Origin: Candidatus Methanoperedens sp.
Lineage (GTDB): Archaea > Halobacteriota > Methanosarcinia > Methanosarcinales > Methanoperedenaceae
Reading direction: 5' to 3'
NCBI GenBank assembly: GCA_012026795.1
Contig: VEPM01000021.1
Coordinates: forward strand, 1-64,000
DNA length: 64,000 nucleotides
Positions 5,221-49,810 of this stretch are shown here, one piece after another (positions within the stretch are counted from its first letter, which is position 1; each line of letters opens with the position of its first letter). Both the position numbers and the translations under genes were made by a program. The notes beneath the pieces were generated by a model. That model was given only the letters and a program-made list of their open reading frames with translations, had not been told where the DNA came from and did no database searches.

Positions 5221-5353
5221 AATTATTTCATCTTTGAATTAATATAATATTTTTGAAGGATAAGTTTAAGTATTTTGCAGATTAAACTGAACTGAATATA
5301 TCATTATTAATGATTTGAATAATAATAATAATGGTGATGATAGGAGTATTCAT

Positions 5354-6304
5354 ATGATAGATAAAAACGTTTTAAAGATAATTATAGGATTGGTTTTTGT
5401 GCTCTTAGCTTTGCAGGTAATTCAACCAGCAGCGTCAAAAGCACCGGATTTACCTAATAACTCATGTGCTGATTGCCACCGCCAATTGCTTTTTAGTTCA
5501 GAATCACAAAGGCAATTTATCGATATTCGCATCAAGCATCTTGAAAGCGGTATTTCATGTTCGATCATTTGCCATGAGGATAGGCTCAATAAATCAACTG
5601 CCAGTACTTATGCCATGTGGTCAATATCCACACACGCTCTTTTTGAAGTAACATGTGAAAAATGCCATGGTGGAGACCCGTCAAAGGTTTTGAAACAGGA
5701 AGCACATGTTGGTGTTTCAAATTCCAGCATATTACGCGCAAATACTCCCGAAATGTGCGGTAAATGCCACGGGCCTGAACTTGAAGAATTCAAGAGTTCC
5801 CAGCATTTCAAGAAATTAGAATCAAACCAGGAAGGACCCGCACCCGCATGCATCACCTGTCACCAGGCGCATAGCGTCCGGGTTTTAACAGCATCTGAAA
5901 TTGAGGATTTCTGCAGCAATTGCCATAATAACATCACGGGTATAAATCCTGGAGTGCCAAAGAAAGCAGAAACAGCCCTGTCTTCGGTAAGGGAATTGCA
6001 GCTTGAAATATCAAAGGCAAGAAGCTCTGTTCTTGCGGCAAAAGCCTCAGGAAAGGATGTTACAGCAGCCGAAGCAGACCTTGAATCAGCAAAGACAATA
6101 CTAAAAAATACTCCGTCTGTCTGGCACAGGTTTAACCTGACTTACTTTGATACGGAAGTCCATAAAGGAATAACAGATGCCCAGAATGCAGAAAAAGCGA
6201 TGCCTGATAATAATGAAACAGCGGTTCCAACAAAAGCACCAGGATTTGGAGTTTTCCTGATGGTATCAGGCCTGGTAGCAGCATATCTGTTAAAACGGCA
6301 TTGA
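5354..6304 (+). CDS. Hexaheme c-type cytochrome, membrane-anchored (copy 1)
   Basis: I place the start at the ATG at 5354 because TAGGAG lies 7-8 nt upstream; an upstream TTG at 5315 would add an Asn-rich stretch. The 316-residue protein has a signal peptide, five CXXCH sites (about residues 38, 101, 135, 166, 187) and one CX3CH site (CSIICH, about 69), so up to six hemes c. A coiled-coil-prone helix follows (about 210-260), then a PGFGV motif, one hydrophobic helix and a basic end, an archaeal sorting anchor. It should sit outside the membrane. It is a paralogue of the next gene and heads the Rieske/cytochrome b operon, hence probably the electron acceptor or exit of that complex. Confidence 0.88.
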   Translation: MIDKNVLKIIIGLVFVLLALQVIQPAASKAPDLPNNSCADCHRQLLFSSESQRQFIDIRIKHLESGISCSIICHEDRLNKSTASTYAMWSISTHALFEVTCEKCHGGDPSKVLKQEAHVGVSNSSILRANTPEMCGKCHGPELEEFKSSQHFKKLESNQEGPAPACITCHQAHSVRVLTASEIEDFCSNCHNNITGINPGVPKKAETALSSVRELQLEISKARSSVLAAKASGKDVTAAEADLESAKTILKNTPSVWHRFNLTYFDTEVHKGITDAQNAEKAMPDNNETAVPTKAPGFGVFLMVSGLVAAYLLKRH

Positions 6305-6347
6305 CAAATCATCATATTAATTTAATATACAAACAAAAGGTGATTGA

Positions 6348-7289
6348 ATGAATATAAAAAAAACGATTGTATTAGCTGGTTTCATGTTTATATTTGCGAT
6401 ATTAGCCATATTAGCCATGCCAGTATCAGCAGCAGACAATAATTCATGCCTGGATTGCCATGAAAAACTTACAGCATTCAATGAGACAGAAAAACAACTT
6501 AATGAGGTAAGAATAAAACATCTTCAAAGGGATGTTGCCTGTTCTCTTGAGTGCCATGCAACTATTATCGACAAGATTGCGAAAAGCAATTATGAACAGT
6601 GGACAAATTCCAAACATGCCATGTTCAATGTCACATGCGATAAATGTCATGGGGGCGACGTCGGTTCTGATATAAAGGAAACAGCACATGCAGGTGTTTC
6701 ACGCTCATCAGAAACAAACAGTACTGTCTTTTACAGGAATGTACCCGAAACTTGCGGTAAATGTCATGTTAATGAATTAAATCAGTTCAAAGATTCCTTA
6801 CATTATCAGAGATTAAAGGCACTGAAACAGGCACCAACGTGCGATACATGCCACATGCCACATGAATTCAAAGTGTTAAATTCCAGTGAATTCCAGAATC
6901 TATGCAGTAGCTGTCATAATATTGATATGAAAATTGCCCCTGACATTCCTGACAAAGCTGTGGTAGCAATTGATAATACTGAAATACTCAGGAACGAGAT
7001 TAGGATTGCAGATGAGGCTATAAAACAGGCAAAACAGCAGGGAAAAGACGTCACAGTCGCACAAAAAGAGCTTGATTCTGCACTGGCCATCCGGGATAAT
7101 CTTCCCATACTCTGGCATAGTTTTAACCTTCCCAACTTCCAGAATGTAACTGAAAATGGCATTGTATTTGCCAAGAAAGCACAAACAGAGTTAGGGTTAC
7201 CCCAGACCAAGCCGTCAACTCCCGGATTTGGAATAATATTATCCGTTATGGGAATAATTTCAATATACCTGCTAATACGCAGAAGATAA
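6348..7289 (+). CDS. Hexaheme c-type cytochrome, membrane-anchored (copy 2)
   Basis: A 313-residue paralogue of the preceding gene with the same layout: signal peptide, five CXXCH sites (about residues 34, 97, 136, 165, 186), one CX3CH site (CSLECH, about 65), a helical linker with the same WH(S/R)FNL stretch, then PGFGI, a hydrophobic helix and RRR. Conserved histidines (IKH, SKHAMF, LHY) are candidate axial ligands. A GGTGA Shine-Dalgarno lies upstream. Tandem duplication followed by divergence is likely. Together the two copies could give a 12-heme wire on the outer face, next to the quinol-oxidising complex encoded downstream. Confidence 0.88.
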   Translation: MNIKKTIVLAGFMFIFAILAILAMPVSAADNNSCLDCHEKLTAFNETEKQLNEVRIKHLQRDVACSLECHATIIDKIAKSNYEQWTNSKHAMFNVTCDKCHGGDVGSDIKETAHAGVSRSSETNSTVFYRNVPETCGKCHVNELNQFKDSLHYQRLKALKQAPTCDTCHMPHEFKVLNSSEFQNLCSSCHNIDMKIAPDIPDKAVVAIDNTEILRNEIRIADEAIKQAKQQGKDVTVAQKELDSALAIRDNLPILWHSFNLPNFQNVTENGIVFAKKAQTELGLPQTKPSTPGFGIILSVMGIISIYLLIRRR

Positions 7290-7305
7290 AAGAGGTGAAA
7301 CCAGA

Positions 7306-7653
7306 ATGAACAAAAAACGAATAAATCAAATCATATTGTTGGTTGCATTAGTTCTCCTGCTATTAATGCCCTCTTTAACATCGGCACGGCCCGAATATGC
7401 AGTAAAGGAAAGCAGGAATTGCCCATATTGCCATACAAGGGATGGCCCGCCGCAGCTCAACGAGATCGGAGTTTATTATGCTACCCACAATTATTCTATG
7501 GAAGGTTATGTTCCAACACCAACAGTGACGCCAACTCCTGAACCTACAAAGGAGATCGAGATAGGGGTTCATATGACAACATGGGATGTAGGGATACGAG
7601 GATTGGCTCTTATCCTGCTTGTGCTTGCCATAGTTTATGTAATAAGGTTGTGA
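7306..7653 (+). CDS. Membrane-bound monoheme cytochrome c
   Basis: A 115-residue protein: signal peptide or N-terminal helix (about 7-27), one CXXCH heme site (CPYCH, about 40-44), a Thr/Pro-rich linker (about 70-85) and a C-terminal transmembrane helix (about 95-113). The strong AGAGGTGA ribosome site 16 nt after the previous stop marks it as part of the same operon. It is best seen as a small c-type subunit of the Rieske/cytochrome b complex, in the place where cytochrome c1 or f would act, although it is much smaller than either. The family is not otherwise known to me. Confidence 0.78.
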   Translation: MNKKRINQIILLVALVLLLLMPSLTSARPEYAVKESRNCPYCHTRDGPPQLNEIGVYYATHNYSMEGYVPTPTVTPTPEPTKEIEIGVHMTTWDVGIRGLALILLVLAIVYVIRL

Positions 7654-7660
7654 GGTAATC

Positions 7661-7936
7661 ATGCATATTGAGAAAATAGAATATGGGCCGGAGAAAGAAG
7701 GCCTGTGGTCGCAGGTTGCTTTTGTATTGATAATTCTTTTGGCACTTGTCGCAGCCGGAATTACAGGAATATTTTTTTGGAGAATCTTAACAAGCGATGT
7801 CCAGGTTGCATCTACAAGACAATTCAATGAGGACATAGGAAAATTACTTGCTTATCTCCTGTTTGACCTGGCAGCTATCATTTATCTATATGTTAAAGAG
7901 CTGCTGCAAGACGAATATGTTACAACACTGGAGTGA
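7661..7936 (+). CDS. Small two-helix membrane protein of the cytochrome operon
   Basis: A 91-residue protein with two predicted transmembrane helices (about 18-42 and 60-78) and no heme or metal motif. It starts 7 nt after the monoheme cytochrome stop and ends just before the Rieske gene. Position and size suggest a structural subunit of the bc-type complex, like the small subunits of b6f. I do not recognise a family. Confidence 0.7.
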   Translation: MHIEKIEYGPEKEGLWSQVAFVLIILLALVAAGITGIFFWRILTSDVQVASTRQFNEDIGKLLAYLLFDLAAIIYLYVKELLQDEYVTTLE

Positions 7937-7940
7937 GAAC

Positions 7941-8435
7941 ATGGATGATAAAATAACTTTTACAATTACAAGAAGGAAGCTTACTGAGCTTATTATGGCA
8001 CTTGTTGCATTATTCTTTGCAGGAGGCGCCCTGGCATCGATATTGAAATACCTCTGGCCTGCCACTTCTGCAAAAGGCGATGCCGCCGAAATAAAAATTG
8101 CAAATGCAGATGAAGTTCCGACAGGCAGTGCCAGGAAGTTCATGTTTAACGGGAAAGCGGCCGTACTCCTGCATATGCCCGCAGGTTTTCGAGCTTTCGG
8201 ATCCGTTTGCACGCATCTTGGATGTATCTCTTACTGGAAAGAGGATGAAGGCATCCTGTTCTGCCCATGCCACCTGGGAAAGTTCGATCCGAACACAGGC
8301 GCTGTAATATCAGGACCGCCCCCATCCCCATTACCGGCAATTGATATTGTCGTAAAAGAAGGAGCGGTCTATGCGCTTAAATGGAAAGATCCTGCATATG
8401 TGAGGACCATTTCATTCTATGCCGGAGCTGCCTAG
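7941..8435 (+). CDS. Rieske [2Fe-2S] protein
   Basis: The start is the ATG at 7941, four nt after the preceding stop; a longer frame exists upstream but runs through the previous gene. The 164-residue protein has an N-terminal membrane helix (about 14-38) and a Rieske domain with box 1 CTHLGC and box 2 CPCHLGKF, giving the two Cys and two His cluster ligands, then a GPPPSPLP Pro loop. This subunit takes one electron from quinol and passes it to a c-type cytochrome on the outer face. It forms a complex with the cytochrome b subunits encoded next. Confidence 0.93.
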   Translation: MDDKITFTITRRKLTELIMALVALFFAGGALASILKYLWPATSAKGDAAEIKIANADEVPTGSARKFMFNGKAAVLLHMPAGFRAFGSVCTHLGCISYWKEDEGILFCPCHLGKFDPNTGAVISGPPPSPLPAIDIVVKEGAVYALKWKDPAYVRTISFYAGAA

Positions 8436-8445
8436 GGGTGATCAT

Positions 8446-9108
8446 ATGAGACTTGAAGATAAGATATACAAATGGTTCGATGACAGGTTTAAGTTAAAAG
8501 AATTACTCACCCCGATTATCAAGCATCCTGCTCCGGAATATGCGGTGACAAACCCTTTGTACTGCCTCGGAGGGATTGCTTTCCTGTGTTTCCTGATACT
8601 TGTTGGAACTGGCGTATTCCTGGCAATGTACTATAAGCCTACACCACTTGAAGCATATAAAAGCGTTGAACATATCATGACCGCAGTTCCCATGGGAAGC
8701 CTGATAAGGAGCCTCCACCACTGGGCTGCAAATACTATGATCGCCGCAGTAATGCTTCATATGATGAGGATATACTTCATGGGAGCATATAAGAAACCGC
8801 GGGAATTGAACTGGGTTGTTGGTGTAACACTCCTATTGATCACCACAACTTTCGGGTTCTCAGGATACCTTCTGCCATGGGACCAGCTTGCGTTCTGGGC
8901 AACAAAAATAGGAACAGGGATCGCGGGATCGATACCAGTCATAGGAGAATATATTTCCTTAATACTGGTAGGAGGAACAGACATTGGCGCTGAGACAATG
9001 ACAAGGTTCTTTGCCATTCATGTAATGATCCTTCCAATAACCATTGCAATTCTCCTGTTAATGCATTTTGCCATGGTCAGGATACAGGGAATTTCAGGGA
9101 GGCTCTGA
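8446..9108 (+). CDS. petB: Cytochrome b, N-terminal (b6-type) subunit
   Basis: Start at the ATG at 8446 with AGGGGTGAT upstream. The 220-residue protein has four membrane helices and the four heme-ligand histidines of the cytochrome b/b6 N-terminal half: SLHHWAAN and MLHMMR in one region, FFAIHVM and LLMHFAM in another. The conserved GYLLPWDQ stretch at the quinol-oxidation site is present. It ends after helix D, so cytochrome b is split as in b6f complexes, with the C-terminal half encoded by the next gene one base later. It oxidises quinol (probably menaquinol) and pumps protons by a Q cycle. Confidence 0.93.
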   Translation: MRLEDKIYKWFDDRFKLKELLTPIIKHPAPEYAVTNPLYCLGGIAFLCFLILVGTGVFLAMYYKPTPLEAYKSVEHIMTAVPMGSLIRSLHHWAANTMIAAVMLHMMRIYFMGAYKKPRELNWVVGVTLLLITTTFGFSGYLLPWDQLAFWATKIGTGIAGSIPVIGEYISLILVGGTDIGAETMTRFFAIHVMILPITIAILLLMHFAMVRIQGISGRL

Positions 9109-9109
9109 T

Positions 9110-9568
9110 ATGTCATTGATCGAAATTGAAAAGCATGAGGTGGAAGAGGAGAGCCATGAGCCTGTCAGGATACGCGGACTTCCGTTTTTCCCGCATTTCC
9201 TGCTTCGTGAAGTAGTTGTAATGTGTCTCGTTGCAGGGAGCCTGATATTGATGGCCTCGATTTACCCGGCAGGTCTTCTCAAGCCGGCAGATCCATTCGA
9301 TACACCAACGCCTATCTATCCTGAATGGTATTTCCTTTATGTCTTCGGGTTCCTCAAATTCTGGACATGGAATATCGGGCCAATAGAAGCAAAAGTGATC
9401 GGTGTGACTTTACCTATGGTATTATGGTATGGCCTTCTGTTCCTGGTACCCTTCATAGACAGGAACCCGTCAAGTGATATAAGGAAAAGAAAAATTGCAG
9501 TTGCCCTTGGAGTTATTGCAATTCTCGGGATTCTGTATTTCACATACTATAGCATTGTCTACCATTGA
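9110..9568 (+). CDS. petD: Cytochrome b C-terminal subunit (subunit IV type)
   Basis: The start is the ATG at 9110, sharing one base region with the petB stop and preceded by GGGAGG. The 152-residue protein has three membrane helices and the PEWYFLY motif, which is the PEWY signature of the quinol-oxidising pocket in cytochrome b and subunit IV. It completes the split cytochrome b. No heme ligands are expected here and none is seen. It is immediately followed by a small membrane protein. Confidence 0.92.
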   Translation: MSLIEIEKHEVEEESHEPVRIRGLPFFPHFLLREVVVMCLVAGSLILMASIYPAGLLKPADPFDTPTPIYPEWYFLYVFGFLKFWTWNIGPIEAKVIGVTLPMVLWYGLLFLVPFIDRNPSSDIRKRKIAVALGVIAILGILYFTYYSIVYH

Positions 9569-35103: not shown

Positions 35104-36556
35104 GCTTGACTTTGTCAGATTACCTCCCTCTTTTATGGTGAGATAATTTTGCTGAGTCCCGTGCTTTATGTTTTTTCTTGATCAATTTTAAGATTTCTTT
35201 ATCCGTCACCTTTCTTTTAGGCATAATAACTTCAAAAATCTCCCTCACATCCCTAATAGTAAGTAGTGGTGCTTTCAATTCCCATTTGTCCTGCATCTCA
35301 AGAAGAAACAGCATTGCCATAAAAACCATAGCCACATGATGATTCCAGCCAATATAACCTCTGACTTCATAATCTGCTAAACCTACCTCTCCTTTAGCAT
35401 CCTCAATGGCACGCTCAATCCAGTAACGGCTGCAAGACATTTTTCCAATTCTCTCAATGCTTGTATCGATCGAAGCATTTGAGAACTGGTATTTTGTCTC
35501 AGTTTCCCCCTCATTACTTCGAATAACAAGCCAGCACTCCTCACCCGGCAATTTATCCGTGACTGGAAAAACCCTCAGATATGCAAGCTTGCACCACATT
35601 TCTTTTCGTTCAGAATTCCTAAGATATACCCTTTGCCACTGTGAAGGGTCTAATTCGTTTGCTAACTTATCTACTCGTATCGGGTTACTATCATTATTAA
35701 GAACCTTTTCGATTGTTGGATTCCGTCCTCGGATTCCATTTTGGGGTACTCCAACATCAGGTCTGTTCAACCATACTCTTGTATCACAGGGTATGTCAGC
35801 AATATAAACAATCCTCTCTTTTTCAAGTTCAGCAAGAAACCATGGTTGTTGCCCGTAAAAAGAATCCATCCCAATCCAACCAAAAGGGATGTCTCGTCTT
35901 TTGGCATCAAGTATCATTTCCAGCCCAAGCTCAGCTTTGGTTTTAAAAACCAGATCATCCGGGATGCCGCATTTCTTTCTGCGTTCGATATCATCTACCC
36001 ACTCCTGAGGAATGTAAAGACGTTTATCCATTAATATCCTCTTGTTATTGTTTACATAACCCAGGAAAACTCCTACCTGGCAGTTTTCTATTTTTCCCAG
36101 TCGTCCACAGTATTGCCTTTGCACTCCTGCTGAACTATCGCCTTGTTTTGGAAATCCTGACTCGTCTAACTGAAGAGAGCCATTTTCTTTGTCACCGATC
36201 AGTTCAACCAAACGGTCCTGAATGTCGTGTATGAGACCATTTTCGTCCCATAACGAATCTGATATAAAGTGCTGGAGTGATTGATTATTGCAGTTCGGAA
36301 CAGTCTTTGCTATTTCTGTCATAGTCCCCCTTTTTTGTACGGTCAAGCAGCCATAGAGATATTTCTTGGATTGCTCAATAACTTTGCGTGTTCTGGTCTT
36401 AAAACGTTCTATGAAATAGTTATGGTAGATCTTTAATTCGATCCTTGCCTGTATTATGTCCTCTCTTATAAGTTTGAAAAATATCTTAATATGTACTCCC
36501 CATATTTAAGAGGGCAATCAAAATATAATAGAGTGGCTAATGTGACAATGTCAAGT
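35104..36556 (-). mobile_element. IS701-like insertion sequence
   Basis: Terminal inverted repeats of about 21-22 bp are at 35104-35124 (GCTTGACTTTGTCAGATTACC) and 36535-36556 (inverse of ACTTGACATTGTCACATTAGCC), with about four mismatches. The 1.45-kb unit holds one transposase gene on the minus strand. I could not identify a clear target-site duplication at its ends. Element size fits IS701. Confidence 0.75.
35120..36490 (-). CDS. IS701-family DDE transposase
   Basis: The product has the IS701-family layout, beginning FIERFKTRTRKVIEQSKKYLYG, then GTMTEIAKTVPNCNNQSLQHFISD, the first catalytic Asp in LQLDESGFPKQG, the second in IGMDSFYG, and the Glu in IERAIEDAKGE. No ATG or GTG is in frame for 48 codons before the TTG at 36346, yet the conserved N-terminus lies there. 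The codon ATT at 36488-36490 is preceded by GGGGAG, so I extend to it (456 residues); a decayed start is the alternative. Intact otherwise. It is next to the start of the P-loop ATPase gene. Confidence 0.8.
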   Translation of the reverse strand: MKIFFKLIREDIIQARIELKIYHNYFIERFKTRTRKVIEQSKKYLYGCLTVQKRGTMTEIAKTVPNCNNQSLQHFISDSLWDENGLIHDIQDRLVELIGDKENGSLQLDESGFPKQGDSSAGVQRQYCGRLGKIENCQVGVFLGYVNNNKRILMDKRLYIPQEWVDDIERRKKCGIPDDLVFKTKAELGLEMILDAKRRDIPFGWIGMDSFYGQQPWFLAELEKERIVYIADIPCDTRVWLNRPDVGVPQNGIRGRNPTIEKVLNNDSNPIRVDKLANELDPSQWQRVYLRNSERKEMWCKLAYLRVFPVTDKLPGEECWLVIRSNEGETETKYQFSNASIDTSIERIGKMSCSRYWIERAIEDAKGEVGLADYEVRGYIGWNHHVAMVFMAMLFLLEMQDKWELKAPLLTIRDVREIFEVIMPKRKVTDKEILKLIKKKHKARDSAKLSHHKRGR

Positions 36557-43576: not shown

Positions 43577-43831
43577 TTACCTTTTTCGGCAAAAAACCGC
43601 CGTATTACCCCTGACCTCAATAAGTTCCGATCCTGAAAGGTCAGCAAGTTCCTGAGCAAGTTCTTTCTTCCCGGTTTCGGCAAAAGCAGATTTAAGAATT
43701 TTAACTTTTACCATATTCCTGTTCTTCAACTGGATTTTTAATTCTTCAACCACACCACCAATACCTGATTTCCCTACTTGTAATGTGGTTTCAATAGAAG
43801 TGGCTTCTGCTCTTTTCTCCTGTTTGTTCAT
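43577..43831 (-). CDS. YhbY/CRM-domain RNA-binding protein
   Basis: An 84-residue protein that is a single CRM domain: TTLQVGKSGIGGVVEELKIQLKNRNMVKVKIL and LSGSELIEVRGNTAVFCRKR. The central GKSG loop is the RNA-binding GxxG motif. CRM/YhbY proteins associate with pre-50S ribosomes. Its start overlaps the stop of the roadblock gene by 4 nt. Confidence 0.9.
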   Translation of the reverse strand: MNKQEKRAEATSIETTLQVGKSGIGGVVEELKIQLKNRNMVKVKILKSAFAETGKKELAQELADLSGSELIEVRGNTAVFCRKR

Positions 43832-44196
43832 GTTAATATCTCTTTTAACTTTTTCGCGGATTTATCAAGTTCCAGAAGAATCAAGCCCAGGCCGATATCC
43901 GGACTGGCAAGAAGGATCAACAAGGCCTTGTGTCCCGCTCCGACAACTATTAATTTTCCATGATCCGATTCGACAATTACTCTTGTAGGTATACCCATAT
44001 CAATATGCGTTGTTGCAGTCTCAGCCGCTCCGAGCATTGTGGCGGACATCGCAGCCATGGATTCTACGATTTGTTCTTTCTGCATAATAGCCCGGATGAG
44101 CAATCCATCACGGCTTGCAGCGGCACATGCGATCACACCGCCTACTTTTTTAAGATCGGTCAATAACTTATCTACCATTTCTATTGTATCGGACAA
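43828..44196 (-). CDS. Roadblock/LC7 domain protein
   Basis: A 122-residue single roadblock/LC7 domain: VGGVIACAAASRDGLLIRAIM, MAAMSATMLGAAETATTHIDMG and IVVGAGHKALLILLASPDIGLGLI. The start is TTG at 44196, chosen because GGGAGGGATCTGA lies right before it. Such proteins dimerise and bind small GTPases, acting as activators (MglB-like). The upstream gene encodes a RecA-GTPase fusion and touches this start (TGATTG), so the partner is very probably that GTPase. Confidence 0.9.
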   Translation of the reverse strand: MSDTIEMVDKLLTDLKKVGGVIACAAASRDGLLIRAIMQKEQIVESMAAMSATMLGAAETATTHIDMGIPTRVIVESDHGKLIVVGAGHKALLILLASPDIGLGLILLELDKSAKKLKEILT

Positions 44197-45366
44197 TCAG
44201 ATCCCTCCCGTGACCCTGTCCAGTAATACTTCAAATGCTTCATACACCCCGATCTTATCTTTTGCTATTGCACGAACGATAGGTATATCCTCCGGTAGAT
44301 GGAATTGTTCCCTTATTTCTTCAGGAGTTAATGCCCCTGGCAAATCCTGTTTATTTGCGACCACAACATACGGAAGTCCATAGGACTTTGTAATATCAAG
44401 CATATGTTTTGCCCTAATAAAATCAGAAGGATTTGTTGAATCCACAATAAGAAAAACACCCATTGATTCACCGCTGAGCAATTTAATGATAGGGTCAAAT
44501 CGTTCCTGCCCCGGTGTTCCGAATATATCAGCACTAAAACCCTTATAATCCACATGACCGTGGTCCATGGCAACAGTGGTGCCGAGCCTGTCAACCGATA
44601 TCGCCCGCGTGGACAGAGCATGGACAAATGTGCTCTTCCCGGCATCAAAAGGACCTGTGACAAGTATTTTAGGTATGAATATCTTTATACCGCCCGGCCT
44701 TAAAACCCTGAAAAGCATTGATTTCCTGGATGCTTCTACCCAGTCTGATTTCATTATTCCGAAATACTGCCCGAAAATAACACGTTCAGCTATTCCGCCG
44801 ATAGAAATAATCGAATTGAAAAGGTCTCCCTTGATCTGATTTAATGTTTCATCAGAATAAGGCCATGCCGTGAAATTATAAACGATGGTATGATCATACA
44901 ACATCGCCATCTTGTTCCATGTCCTGACCGCTTCAATTGTTTCTTTCTCCCCGCACAGGTCCATTATTGTTGAAAGAGAACCGAAAACGATAGTACTTGG
45001 TGGTAATTCTTTTATGATATCCATTATTGTCTTGTGAAAATCTTCTATCTTATCCGGATTCGAAACAATGTACTTTTCATTAGATGGGGCACCGATTAAA
45101 GGATTATAGGAATCGACAAAAAATAATTTATCCTTGAATGAGTTAATATCCCAGCCAAACTCGCTAAACTGGCCTTTTACAATATCGGGTATGGTGCTTG
45201 ATACGACAAAAACGCATGTTCCACCCGCCTTGAGTGTACCATAAACTGTCTGCAATCCAAATATCTCACCTTCAACACCTGGCTGGCTGTAATAAACAAG
45301 ACTCTTCCCTCTTGGAATACCTCCCCCCAGGAATTTGTCAAGCTTAGGGATTCCTGTCTCTATCAT
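44197..45366 (-). CDS. RecA/KaiC-like domain fused to a Ras/Arf-like GTPase
   Basis: A 389-residue fusion. Residues about 1-225 are a KaiC/RAD55-like RecA fold (GIPKLDKFLGGGIPRGK); its Walker A position reads YSQPGVEGEIF, lacking the GK(T/S), so it probably does not hydrolyse ATP. Residues about 235-389 are a small GTPase: P loop GPFDAGKST, switch II FGTPGQERF (the usual Asp of DTAGQE is Gly, the Gln is kept), VANKQDLPG (NKxD) and a final AIAKDKIG. The operon holds a roadblock protein and a second KaiC-like ATPase. It is a probable signalling or membrane-position switch. The domain order is unusual. Confidence 0.88.
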   Translation of the reverse strand: MIETGIPKLDKFLGGGIPRGKSLVYYSQPGVEGEIFGLQTVYGTLKAGGTCVFVVSSTIPDIVKGQFSEFGWDINSFKDKLFFVDSYNPLIGAPSNEKYIVSNPDKIEDFHKTIMDIIKELPPSTIVFGSLSTIMDLCGEKETIEAVRTWNKMAMLYDHTIVYNFTAWPYSDETLNQIKGDLFNSIISIGGIAERVIFGQYFGIMKSDWVEASRKSMLFRVLRPGGIKIFIPKILVTGPFDAGKSTFVHALSTRAISVDRLGTTVAMDHGHVDYKGFSADIFGTPGQERFDPIIKLLSGESMGVFLIVDSTNPSDFIRAKHMLDITKSYGLPYVVVANKQDLPGALTPEEIREQFHLPEDIPIVRAIAKDKIGVYEAFEVLLDRVTGGI

Positions 45367-45367
45367 A

Positions 45368-46072
45368 TTAATTTCCCCTTATTATCTTTATATTGTAGCC
45401 ATCGATCTCATATTCAAACCATGGTGTTGGTTTTTGAGATATTCCGACCACTCGTATAAAATTTTTATCCTCCACAGATTTAATCTCTATCATGCCGTCA
45501 AATAATTGTTTTAAAGTTGCGACCGCCTGGTCATCATGCATACCGCTCTCTATTACATAAATTCCCAGAGCACCCGCTGCCTTAATACGACCGGTAAAAA
45601 CATGAAGGAACCTGAAAACAGTCTGAATATTTGAATACATTAGTATTGTTGAGAGTGAATTTATATATAACTGGATCTTCTGGGTATTCTTTTTCATAAA
45701 GAATTCCTCAAAAAACTGGCTGATCTTGACCCCTATACCCGTAAGATCAACGGGACTGCTTGCGATTTTTATATTCTCATTCTCGATCGAAGCACCACCA
45801 AGGGTTTTTGTAACACAGTCGATTATCCCGATCCTTGACATGGGAAGATTCAAATCATGCTCCTTGAACCATTCAAGAATATGGACGGCGGATTCACGCG
45901 TATTGACTGTAATAATTGCATTTTCATTTTTTACAGCGCCATTGTACATAATGTGGTTCAGGATGGCTTCCTTCCCACTCATGGGTGGTCCTATAAGCAT
46001 TATATTCGACCCTTTTCTGATACCTCCAATCGCATCATCCAGTTCCTTAATACCTAATGTATAGTCGCTCAT
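45368..46072 (-). CDS. KaiC/RAD55-like RecA-superfamily ATPase
   Basis: A 234-residue protein with a RecA fold like RAD55 proteins: TLGIKELDDAIGG, Walker A LIGPPMSGKEAIL, then LYINSLSTILMYSN. It differs from the RecA half of the fusion gene by keeping a canonical GxxxxGK. It ends 1 nt before the fusion gene start, so the two are coupled. A heterodimer of an ATP-binding and a non-binding RecA domain is plausible. Function unproven. Confidence 0.85.
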   Translation of the reverse strand: MSDYTLGIKELDDAIGGIRKGSNIMLIGPPMSGKEAILNHIMYNGAVKNENAIITVNTRESAVHILEWFKEHDLNLPMSRIGIIDCVTKTLGGASIENENIKIASSPVDLTGIGVKISQFFEEFFMKKNTQKIQLYINSLSTILMYSNIQTVFRFLHVFTGRIKAAGALGIYVIESGMHDDQAVATLKQLFDGMIEIKSVEDKNFIRVVGISQKPTPWFEYEIDGYNIKIIRGN

Positions 46073-48869: not shown

Positions 48870-49039
48870 TATATCCCCCGAAATAATACCTATAAGAGTC
48901 TTGAAAAATAAATCTTTGCTTTCTTGGCCAGAATTTATTCACCGCTTATAGTATTATATCGATAAGAGCCTCATAATTATAACTATAAGACGAATAAGTA
49001 TTTATATAGCAAAAGAATATTATATCAAGGTTGAATTTC

Positions 49040-49810
49040 ATGGTTGATAAGAAAAAGATTAAGACAGAAAAAGCTGACTCAAAGCGTGTTCCTACGGGGA
49101 TAGAAGGTTTTGACGAATTGTGTGGCGGTGGATTACTAAGAAACAGGTCATATCTATTATCAGGAGCAGCCGGTTGTGGAAAGACCATATTTGGGCTCCA
49201 GTATCTCTATAATGGCATAACGAAATATGGAGAAAATGGCATATATATAGCGACAGAGGAGCGACCCGATCAGGTCAGGGAAAATGTCCTGAAGTTCGGG
49301 TGGGATTTTGAAGCCCTTGAGGATGAAGGAAAACTTGCGATAATTGATGCATGTTCTACCAAGATAGGCATTCCATCCCATGAAAAATACGTTGATGTAA
49401 GACCTTTTGACCTTCGATCCATGATGGATCAGATAATTGCCATACAGGATACGATCGATGCCAAGAGGGCGCTTGTTGATGGAACAACATCTATTGGTTT
49501 TTACCTGCAGGAACCTTCAAAAATAAGAGTCGAGCTTTTAAAATTGAGCACAACTCTTGAAGTGCTGGGATTGACTTCATTTATGACATGTGAAATAATA
49601 GATGAAAATTCAACCAGCAGGTTTGGGGTTGAAACGTTCGTAACCGAAGGCACAATAGTGATGTATAACAAACGGGTTAATGATGTCAGGATTAGAAGTG
49701 TCGAGGTTTTCAAAATGAGAGGATCGGACCATAGCAAAGGTATCCATCCATATGAAATCACACCAACCGGAATAGTAGTGCATCCCGGAGAAGGAGTATA
49801 TACCTCGTAA
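49040..49810 (+). CDS. KaiC-domain ATPase
   Basis: Start at ATG 49040 behind AAGGTTGA; the frame also opens at TTG 49031. The 256-residue product is a single KaiC domain: VPTGIEGFDELCGGGLLRNRS, Walker A SGAAGCGKTIFGLQYL, ATEERPDQVRENVLKFGWDF and a Walker-B-like KRALVDGTTS. Archaeal single-domain KaiC proteins are common near signalling genes. It stands alone between the divergent acyl-CoA synthetase gene and tpiA, and could be the partner of the KaiC-GTPase operon 3 kb away. Confidence 0.9.
   Translation: MVDKKKIKTEKADSKRVPTGIEGFDELCGGGLLRNRSYLLSGAAGCGKTIFGLQYLYNGITKYGENGIYIATEERPDQVRENVLKFGWDFEALEDEGKLAIIDACSTKIGIPSHEKYVDVRPFDLRSMMDQIIAIQDTIDAKRALVDGTTSIGFYLQEPSKIRVELLKLSTTLEVLGLTSFMTCEIIDENSTSRFGVETFVTEGTIVMYNKRVNDVRIRSVEVFKMRGSDHSKGIHPYEITPTGIVVHPGEGVYTS

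Follow-up and report, generated by a model that had tools for sequence, protein, structure and literature searches.

Organization of the locus

The window (the whole 64,000-nt stretch of Candidatus Methanoperedens DNA analysed here) carries on its minus strand three tightly coupled open reading frames (ORFs), K, F and R, followed by the RNA-binding protein gene yhbY:

45368..46072, minus strand: K, single-domain KaiC-like protein (DUF7504), 234 aa (Pfam, motifs across loci, AlphaFold)
44197..45366, minus strand: F, P-loop-less RecA/KaiC domain (residues ~1-220) joined to an MglA/Arf-like small GTPase (~221-389), 389 aa (Pfam, alignment, model)
44707..45366, minus strand: dead RecA/KaiC half of F, with PGVEGEIF at the P-loop position and IVFGSLST at Walker B (motifs)
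44200..44706, minus strand: GTPase half of F, with G1 GPFDAGKST, G2 LGTT, G3 FGTPGQERF and G4 ANKQD (motifs, PDB profile matches)
43828..44196, minus strand: R, roadblock/LC7 protein, 122 aa, with a TTG start right after the F stop codon (Pfam Robl_LC7, 8e-11)
43577..43831, minus strand: yhbY, YhbY/CRM RNA-binding protein (Pfam CRS1_YhbY, 5.3e-17; synteny)

Transcription runs from K (46072-45368) through F (45366-44197) and R (44196-43828) to yhbY (43831-43577). The coordinates that the earlier note gave for three coupled ORFs are confirmed, with intergenic gaps of 1 nt between K and F and 0 nt between F and R. The start of yhbY shares 4 nt with the end of R, and the operon therefore comprises at least four genes; yhbY probably belongs to the transcription unit yet lies outside the switch. 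F and R share one reading frame with a TGA between them, and the stretches AAGGGGAA upstream of F and GGGAGG upstream of R are plausible ribosome-binding sites. Downstream of yhbY lie rpS19e and a PDCD5-like gene, and the placement of yhbY beside R is conserved by synteny in Methanoperedenaceae and ANME-2 families. The host genome (3.59 Mb) carries six roadblock genes, with F as the sole match of its GTPase family at E<=1e-12, and Candidatus Methanoperedens strain BLZ2 has the same gene neighbourhood, its fusion protein being 97% identical.

Elsewhere in the window, near the operon but on the far side of an acyl-CoA synthetase gene, a gene for a KaiC-like ATPase (49031-49810, plus strand) keeps its P-loop intact (GAAGCGKT), and several Methanoperedens genomes repeat the gene order TIM-KaiC-ACD-K-F-R. 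By eye, an ORF at 35120-36346 (minus strand) resembles an IS-type transposase, and the translations at 5315-9568 (plus strand) resemble multihaem cytochromes followed by Rieske and cytochrome b-like proteins, probably forming a respiratory cluster.

Conservation and changing neighbours across archaea

The K-F-R order is found in 30/30 Methanoperedenaceae loci at the genus and family level, with F-R gaps of -8 to 0 nt and K-F gaps of mostly 0-2 nt, and it recurs across two phyla, so that the fusion reported earlier is real and no product of assembly. Among 30 wider Halobacteriota loci, 26 are K-F-R, one is R-F-K and two are R-k-F, and 19 of 20 Thermoplasmata loci read R-F-K. A second, paralogous R-F-K cluster, hereafter order B, is present in ANME-2 families. 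Two arrangements of the same trio in two phyla argue for function and not for inherited synteny alone. All 37 good-quality genomes among 60 relatives match F, some via the KaiC half only, and four of five sampled families of the order have full-length F orthologues. At E<=1e-40, F is matched in 63 of 393 Halobacteriota genomes, a count that includes divergent K-F pairs; within the Thermoplasmata phylum, 32 of 294 genomes match. Carriers of the trio thus comprise Methanoperedens, ANME-2, other Halobacteriota (some with complete genomes) and Thermoplasmata, and the fusion arrangement is widespread, not peculiar to the window genome.

The roadblock gene stays close to the fusion: R adjoins F in nearly all loci with flanks examined. 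The exceptions are families f16, f19 and f25, in which K-F lacks R in the operon and is followed by a tetrapyrrole-methylase-family gene resembling dph5 (diphthine-synthase-like); all six genomes checked of this type, without an adjacent R, have roadblock genes elsewhere. Three genomes of family f5 without F (at E<=1e-40) gave no Robl_LC7 match whatsoever.

The genes around the trio change between lineages. In 4/5 ANME-2 order-B loci a co-directional PAS-domain protein ends just before R; these proteins contain 6-9 PAS domains in forms of 843-1234 aa, or are split, and no histidine-kinase domain was found in them. At one order-B locus (L053:7937-8877), two overlapping ORFs of 163 and 150 aa without Pfam match replace the PAS protein upstream of R, and a conserved 87-88 aa protein without Pfam match, apparently membrane-bound, is convergent to the cluster in L051 (5503-5769), with equivalents in L049 and L052. 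In Thermoplasmata metagenome-assembled genomes, a response-regulator receiver protein lies convergent right after R-F-K (L112:4893-5294 and L114:9872-10297), and an Archaeoglobi-like genome has a V4R-domain protein after R. The labels “Archaeoglobi-like”, “Methanocella-like” and “Thermoplasmata-like”, which we presume to fit the G-numbered genomes concerned, serve as leads only. A link to type IV pili, considered on account of roadblock arCOG02603 in pilus loci, was dropped, as no pilus genes were recognised among the flanking ORFs inspected. Searches of defence (PADLOC) and phage (PHROGs) libraries returned nothing informative.

Domains of the F, K and R proteins

In F, Pfam detects KaiC at residues 2-151 (3.8e-18) and Arf (9.9e-12) or Ras (1.1e-10) at residues 233-385, and it finds both halves in 19/19 members of a diverse alignment. 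Both domains are placed confidently by AlphaFold, most of the RecA part scoring above 90, and this half resembles the PH0284 structure (2dr3; TMt 0.85). The loss of its P-loop, first read as a missing Walker A lysine in the window motif PGVEGEIF, holds throughout: GK[ST] occurs at the aligned P-loop position in 0/103 distinct F proteins. A regular-expression search of the N-terminal 90 residues for GK[ST] did return 71 matches, all of the GGIPxGKS type, and these were rejected because GGIPxGKS belongs to a KaiC segment ahead of the first strand, outside the P-loop, and no such motif stands in the aligned P-loop column. In the tabulated loci, Gly, Glu or some other residue stands for the Walker B Asp. 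A paralogue of the RecA half (L071:5345-6997; 61% identity) is fused to an unassigned ~320-aa C-terminal part in place of the GTPase, suggesting that the pseudo-KaiC half swaps outputs.

The GTPase half of F, by contrast with its dead KaiC half, retains its motifs: GPFDAGKST, FGTPGQERF with the switch-II Gln and NKQD are read in the window, as described before, and these together with the TT of G2 are kept with few changes in nearly all of the 103 distinct F proteins. FGTPGQERF is exact in 64/103, most of the others differing by one change, and Thermoplasmata mostly have FGIPGQERF. The G2 segment, VDRLGTTVA, lies ~20 residues past the P-loop Lys, with GAT in Thermoplasmata. A few proteins lack the G3 Gln (FGTPGHRLF in a tri-domain protein described below, FGLPGLERF in two), which argues that GTP hydrolysis is not universal.

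Which class of GTPase this is can be read from G3, where Gly replaces the Asp of the canonical DxxGQ, giving GTPGQ. GTPGQ in G3 and a Thr replacing the G2 arginine mark MglA groups 2-5; archaeal MglA proteins form group 4, come almost all from methanogenic Euryarchaeota and are without the insertion that bacterial members have between G1 and G2 (PMC4316618). F has GTPGQ in G3, Thr instead of Arg next to the G2 Thr, no insertion between G1 and G2, and a coupled MglB/roadblock gene, which in L148 is fused to it. MglA proteins are single-domain and 150-240 aa long, whereas F is 389 aa long and begins with a RecA domain, and it is thus best called a KaiC-fused variant. The survey of Wuichet and Sogaard-Andersen (2014) excluded sequences >240 aa and reported group 4 without conserved neighbours (PMC4316618); a KaiC-GTPase fusion would have escaped it. 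Profile comparison with the PDB gives the Arf family as best match (~1e-18), and a single-sequence PDB search matches MglA at 1.2e-6. Of the earlier description as Ras/Arf-type, then, the Arf likeness stands and Ras does not: on its motifs, the GTPase is of the MglA class with the GTPGQ signature of groups 2-5, rather than a plain Ras. Free-standing archaeal relatives with GTPGQERF (~160-230 aa, with some open frames as long as 272) occur in some families, with no roadblock gene within about 2 kb.

K matches DUF7504 (1.6e-25) and KaiC (7.6e-10) in Pfam, and its AlphaFold model adopts the KaiC fold (pLDDT 90.2), with PH0284 (2dr3; TMt ~0.77) and KaiC as closest structures; FlaH (4yds) matches as well. 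In the window K, Glu takes the place of Ser/Thr in Walker A (GPPMSGKE) and Asn that of Asp in Walker B (YINSLST). Among 100 distinct K proteins GK[ED] is the commonest form (63), canonical GK[ST] is found in only 11, and some lack the Lys. At Walker B the window K and most of its relatives have Asn, and Asp is found in order B, Thermoplasmata and others; both K' of the order-B cluster in ANME-2 and the K of family f9 keep GK[ST]. With Walker A altered in most K proteins and Walker B in that of the window, an ATPase role for K is doubtful. The intact Walker A and B pair of KaiC ATPases/autokinases is present neither in F nor in the window K, and the complete GTPase/GAP/ATPase switch that the earlier note envisaged is doubtful in its ATPase part; in the window genome, a nucleotide-sensing or structural role for K is the likelier one.

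R is closest in the PDB to the roadblock proteins 7f8m (4.3e-16), 9jue and 7yh1, and weakly to conservon CvnB5 (3leq; 3.6e-4); a conserved SRDGLLI segment gives it the Asp-Gly pair of MglB-like proteins in addition to the roadblock/LC7 fold. In one genome (G076, locus L148) a single 546-aa frame without stops joins RecA (30-251), GTPase (252-421) and roadblock (429-543) domains, with K directly upstream. Pfam identifies all three (KaiC 3.5e-14, Arf 1.3e-8, Robl_LC7 7.8e-13), and a separate Robl_LC7 model search recovered the same frame. As a piece of sequence evidence, this fusion argues strongly for R working on F, and nothing else in our data does so as well. Its G3 Gln is changed to His, and the protein may be a non-hydrolysing version. 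When F and R were modelled with AlphaFold as one read-through protein, no R docking was displayed, but the R part, mostly below pLDDT 50, is unreliable, because in the alignment MAFFT put R-only rows onto F, leaving only two other fused rows usable. Tree distances of all four domains are correlated (r 0.72-0.85), every pair being high, which mostly reflects shared descent and does not discriminate between them.

A candidate roadblock-regulated GTPase switch

We propose, at odds of roughly two in three, that K-F-R is a small-GTPase switch in which an MglA-class GTPase, carried on a pseudo-KaiC scaffold, is regulated by a roadblock protein. The GTPase domain of F would cycle between GTP and GDP states, and, like MglB with MglA, an R dimer would bind its switch face and set how fast GTP is hydrolysed. 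K and the RecA half of F would assemble via RecA-type interfaces as a scaffold or nucleotide sensor, not a motor, and hold several GTPase domains together, with input arriving via K, R or separate sensors such as the multi-PAS proteins of the paralogous ANME-2 cluster. These steps differ in strength. That F and R influence one another is very probable from the gene pairing and the fusion; that R regulates hydrolysis in a GAP-like manner has slightly better than even odds, by analogy with MglB; and a mixed RecA-type assembly of K and F is conceivable at somewhat under even odds. More speculative still is a ring or filament of pseudo-KaiC domains bearing MglA-class GTPases, gated by roadblock dimers and served by interchangeable sensors (PAS in ANME-2) throughout the two phyla. 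The likeness to MglA/MglB drawn in the earlier note accordingly stands for the conserved GTPase/roadblock pair and for a scaffold-like KaiC half, the GAP activity being putative.

Roadblock proteins elsewhere also act as plain scaffolds or in a GEF-like manner. R could likewise be a scaffolding or anchoring dimer of the Ragulator type that recruits F, with hydrolysis intrinsic or otherwise controlled, a reading that we consider possible though not probable. Its proximity to 7f8m, 9jue and 7yh1 over CvnB5 suits such a role, as do the six roadblock genes facing one such GTPase in the host genome and the finding that partners of groups 2-5 MglA share little but the Asp-Gly pair and have no arginine finger (PMC4316618). 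However, fusion of R to the GTPase C-terminus and the constant 1:1 coupling fit a dedicated partner, an argument that does not separate GAP from scaffold.

Two other functions are unlikely. The module might serve ribosome assembly or translation, given yhbY, rpS19e and the PDCD5-like gene in the window, the K-F-R-YhbY order in Methanoperedenaceae and two ANME-2 families, and the dph5-like gene after K-F in three families; yet translation-type neighbours are fully replaced in Archaeoglobi-like, Methanocella-like and Thermoplasmata-like genomes, and PAS sensors stand in their place in order B. Slightly less likely again is an ordinary KaiC-type ATPase hub, with K as the active enzyme and the GTPase half as effector only. 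KaiC hubs have been proposed for archaea, as cited in passages of PMC6393860 and PMC5847659, and the K proteins that keep GK[ST] or the Walker B Asp would suit one, but the window K, with Glu in its P-loop and Asn at Walker B, and the prevalence of GK[ED], up to loss of the P-loop Lys, speak against it. Chance adjacency or an assembly artefact is ruled out for practical purposes by the 30/30 conserved loci and the cross-phylum occurrence.

Archaeal small GTPases figure centrally in the debate over how eukaryotic Arf/Rab signalling arose, and Makarova et al. reportedly described archaeal KaiC hubs in mBio in 2017. No description of KaiC, GTPase and roadblock as one system was found in the literature searched, and K-F-R looks like an uncharacterised signalling module, its novelty being provisional. 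The trio gives an archaeal MglA-type GTPase a constant roadblock and a constant KaiC-like partner, in contrast to the lack of conserved neighbours in the 2014 survey (PMC4316618). It also offers a specific example in support of inactivated KaiC domains serving in signalling, and its spread, which includes complete genomes, makes the biochemistry testable at once. If the ring or filament reading were true, the KaiC fold would be a passive scaffold for G-protein signalling.

Several known systems share parts of this design. The actinobacterial conservon (CvnA-D, MfpB/MfpD) resembles order B in combining a roadblock protein, a GTPGQ GTPase and a sensor (PAS in ANME-2); unlike the conservon, the PAS proteins have no histidine kinase domain and KaiC-like components are present instead, and neither a CvnA histidine kinase nor CvnC DUF742 was seen among F neighbours. 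PH0284, KaiC and ArlH/FlaH have the RecA/KaiC fold common to K and the N-terminal half of F, but F differs from these KaiC-like archaeal ATPases in lacking a P-loop and in its C-terminal GTPase, and the P-loop of K is mostly altered. The eukaryotic Arf family, the best PDB profile match of the GTPase half, keeps the DxxGQ Asp that is Gly in F and has an N-terminal amphipathic helix where F has a RecA domain. With MglA/MglB of bacterial group 1 and archaeal MglA of group 4, K-F-R shares a small GTPase coupled to a roadblock gene; archaeal MglA further shares with F the GTPGQ of groups 2-5, Thr for Arg at G2 and the absence of the G1-G2 insertion. Unlike MglA, the GTPase of F forms one protein with a dead KaiC domain and has K as a companion.
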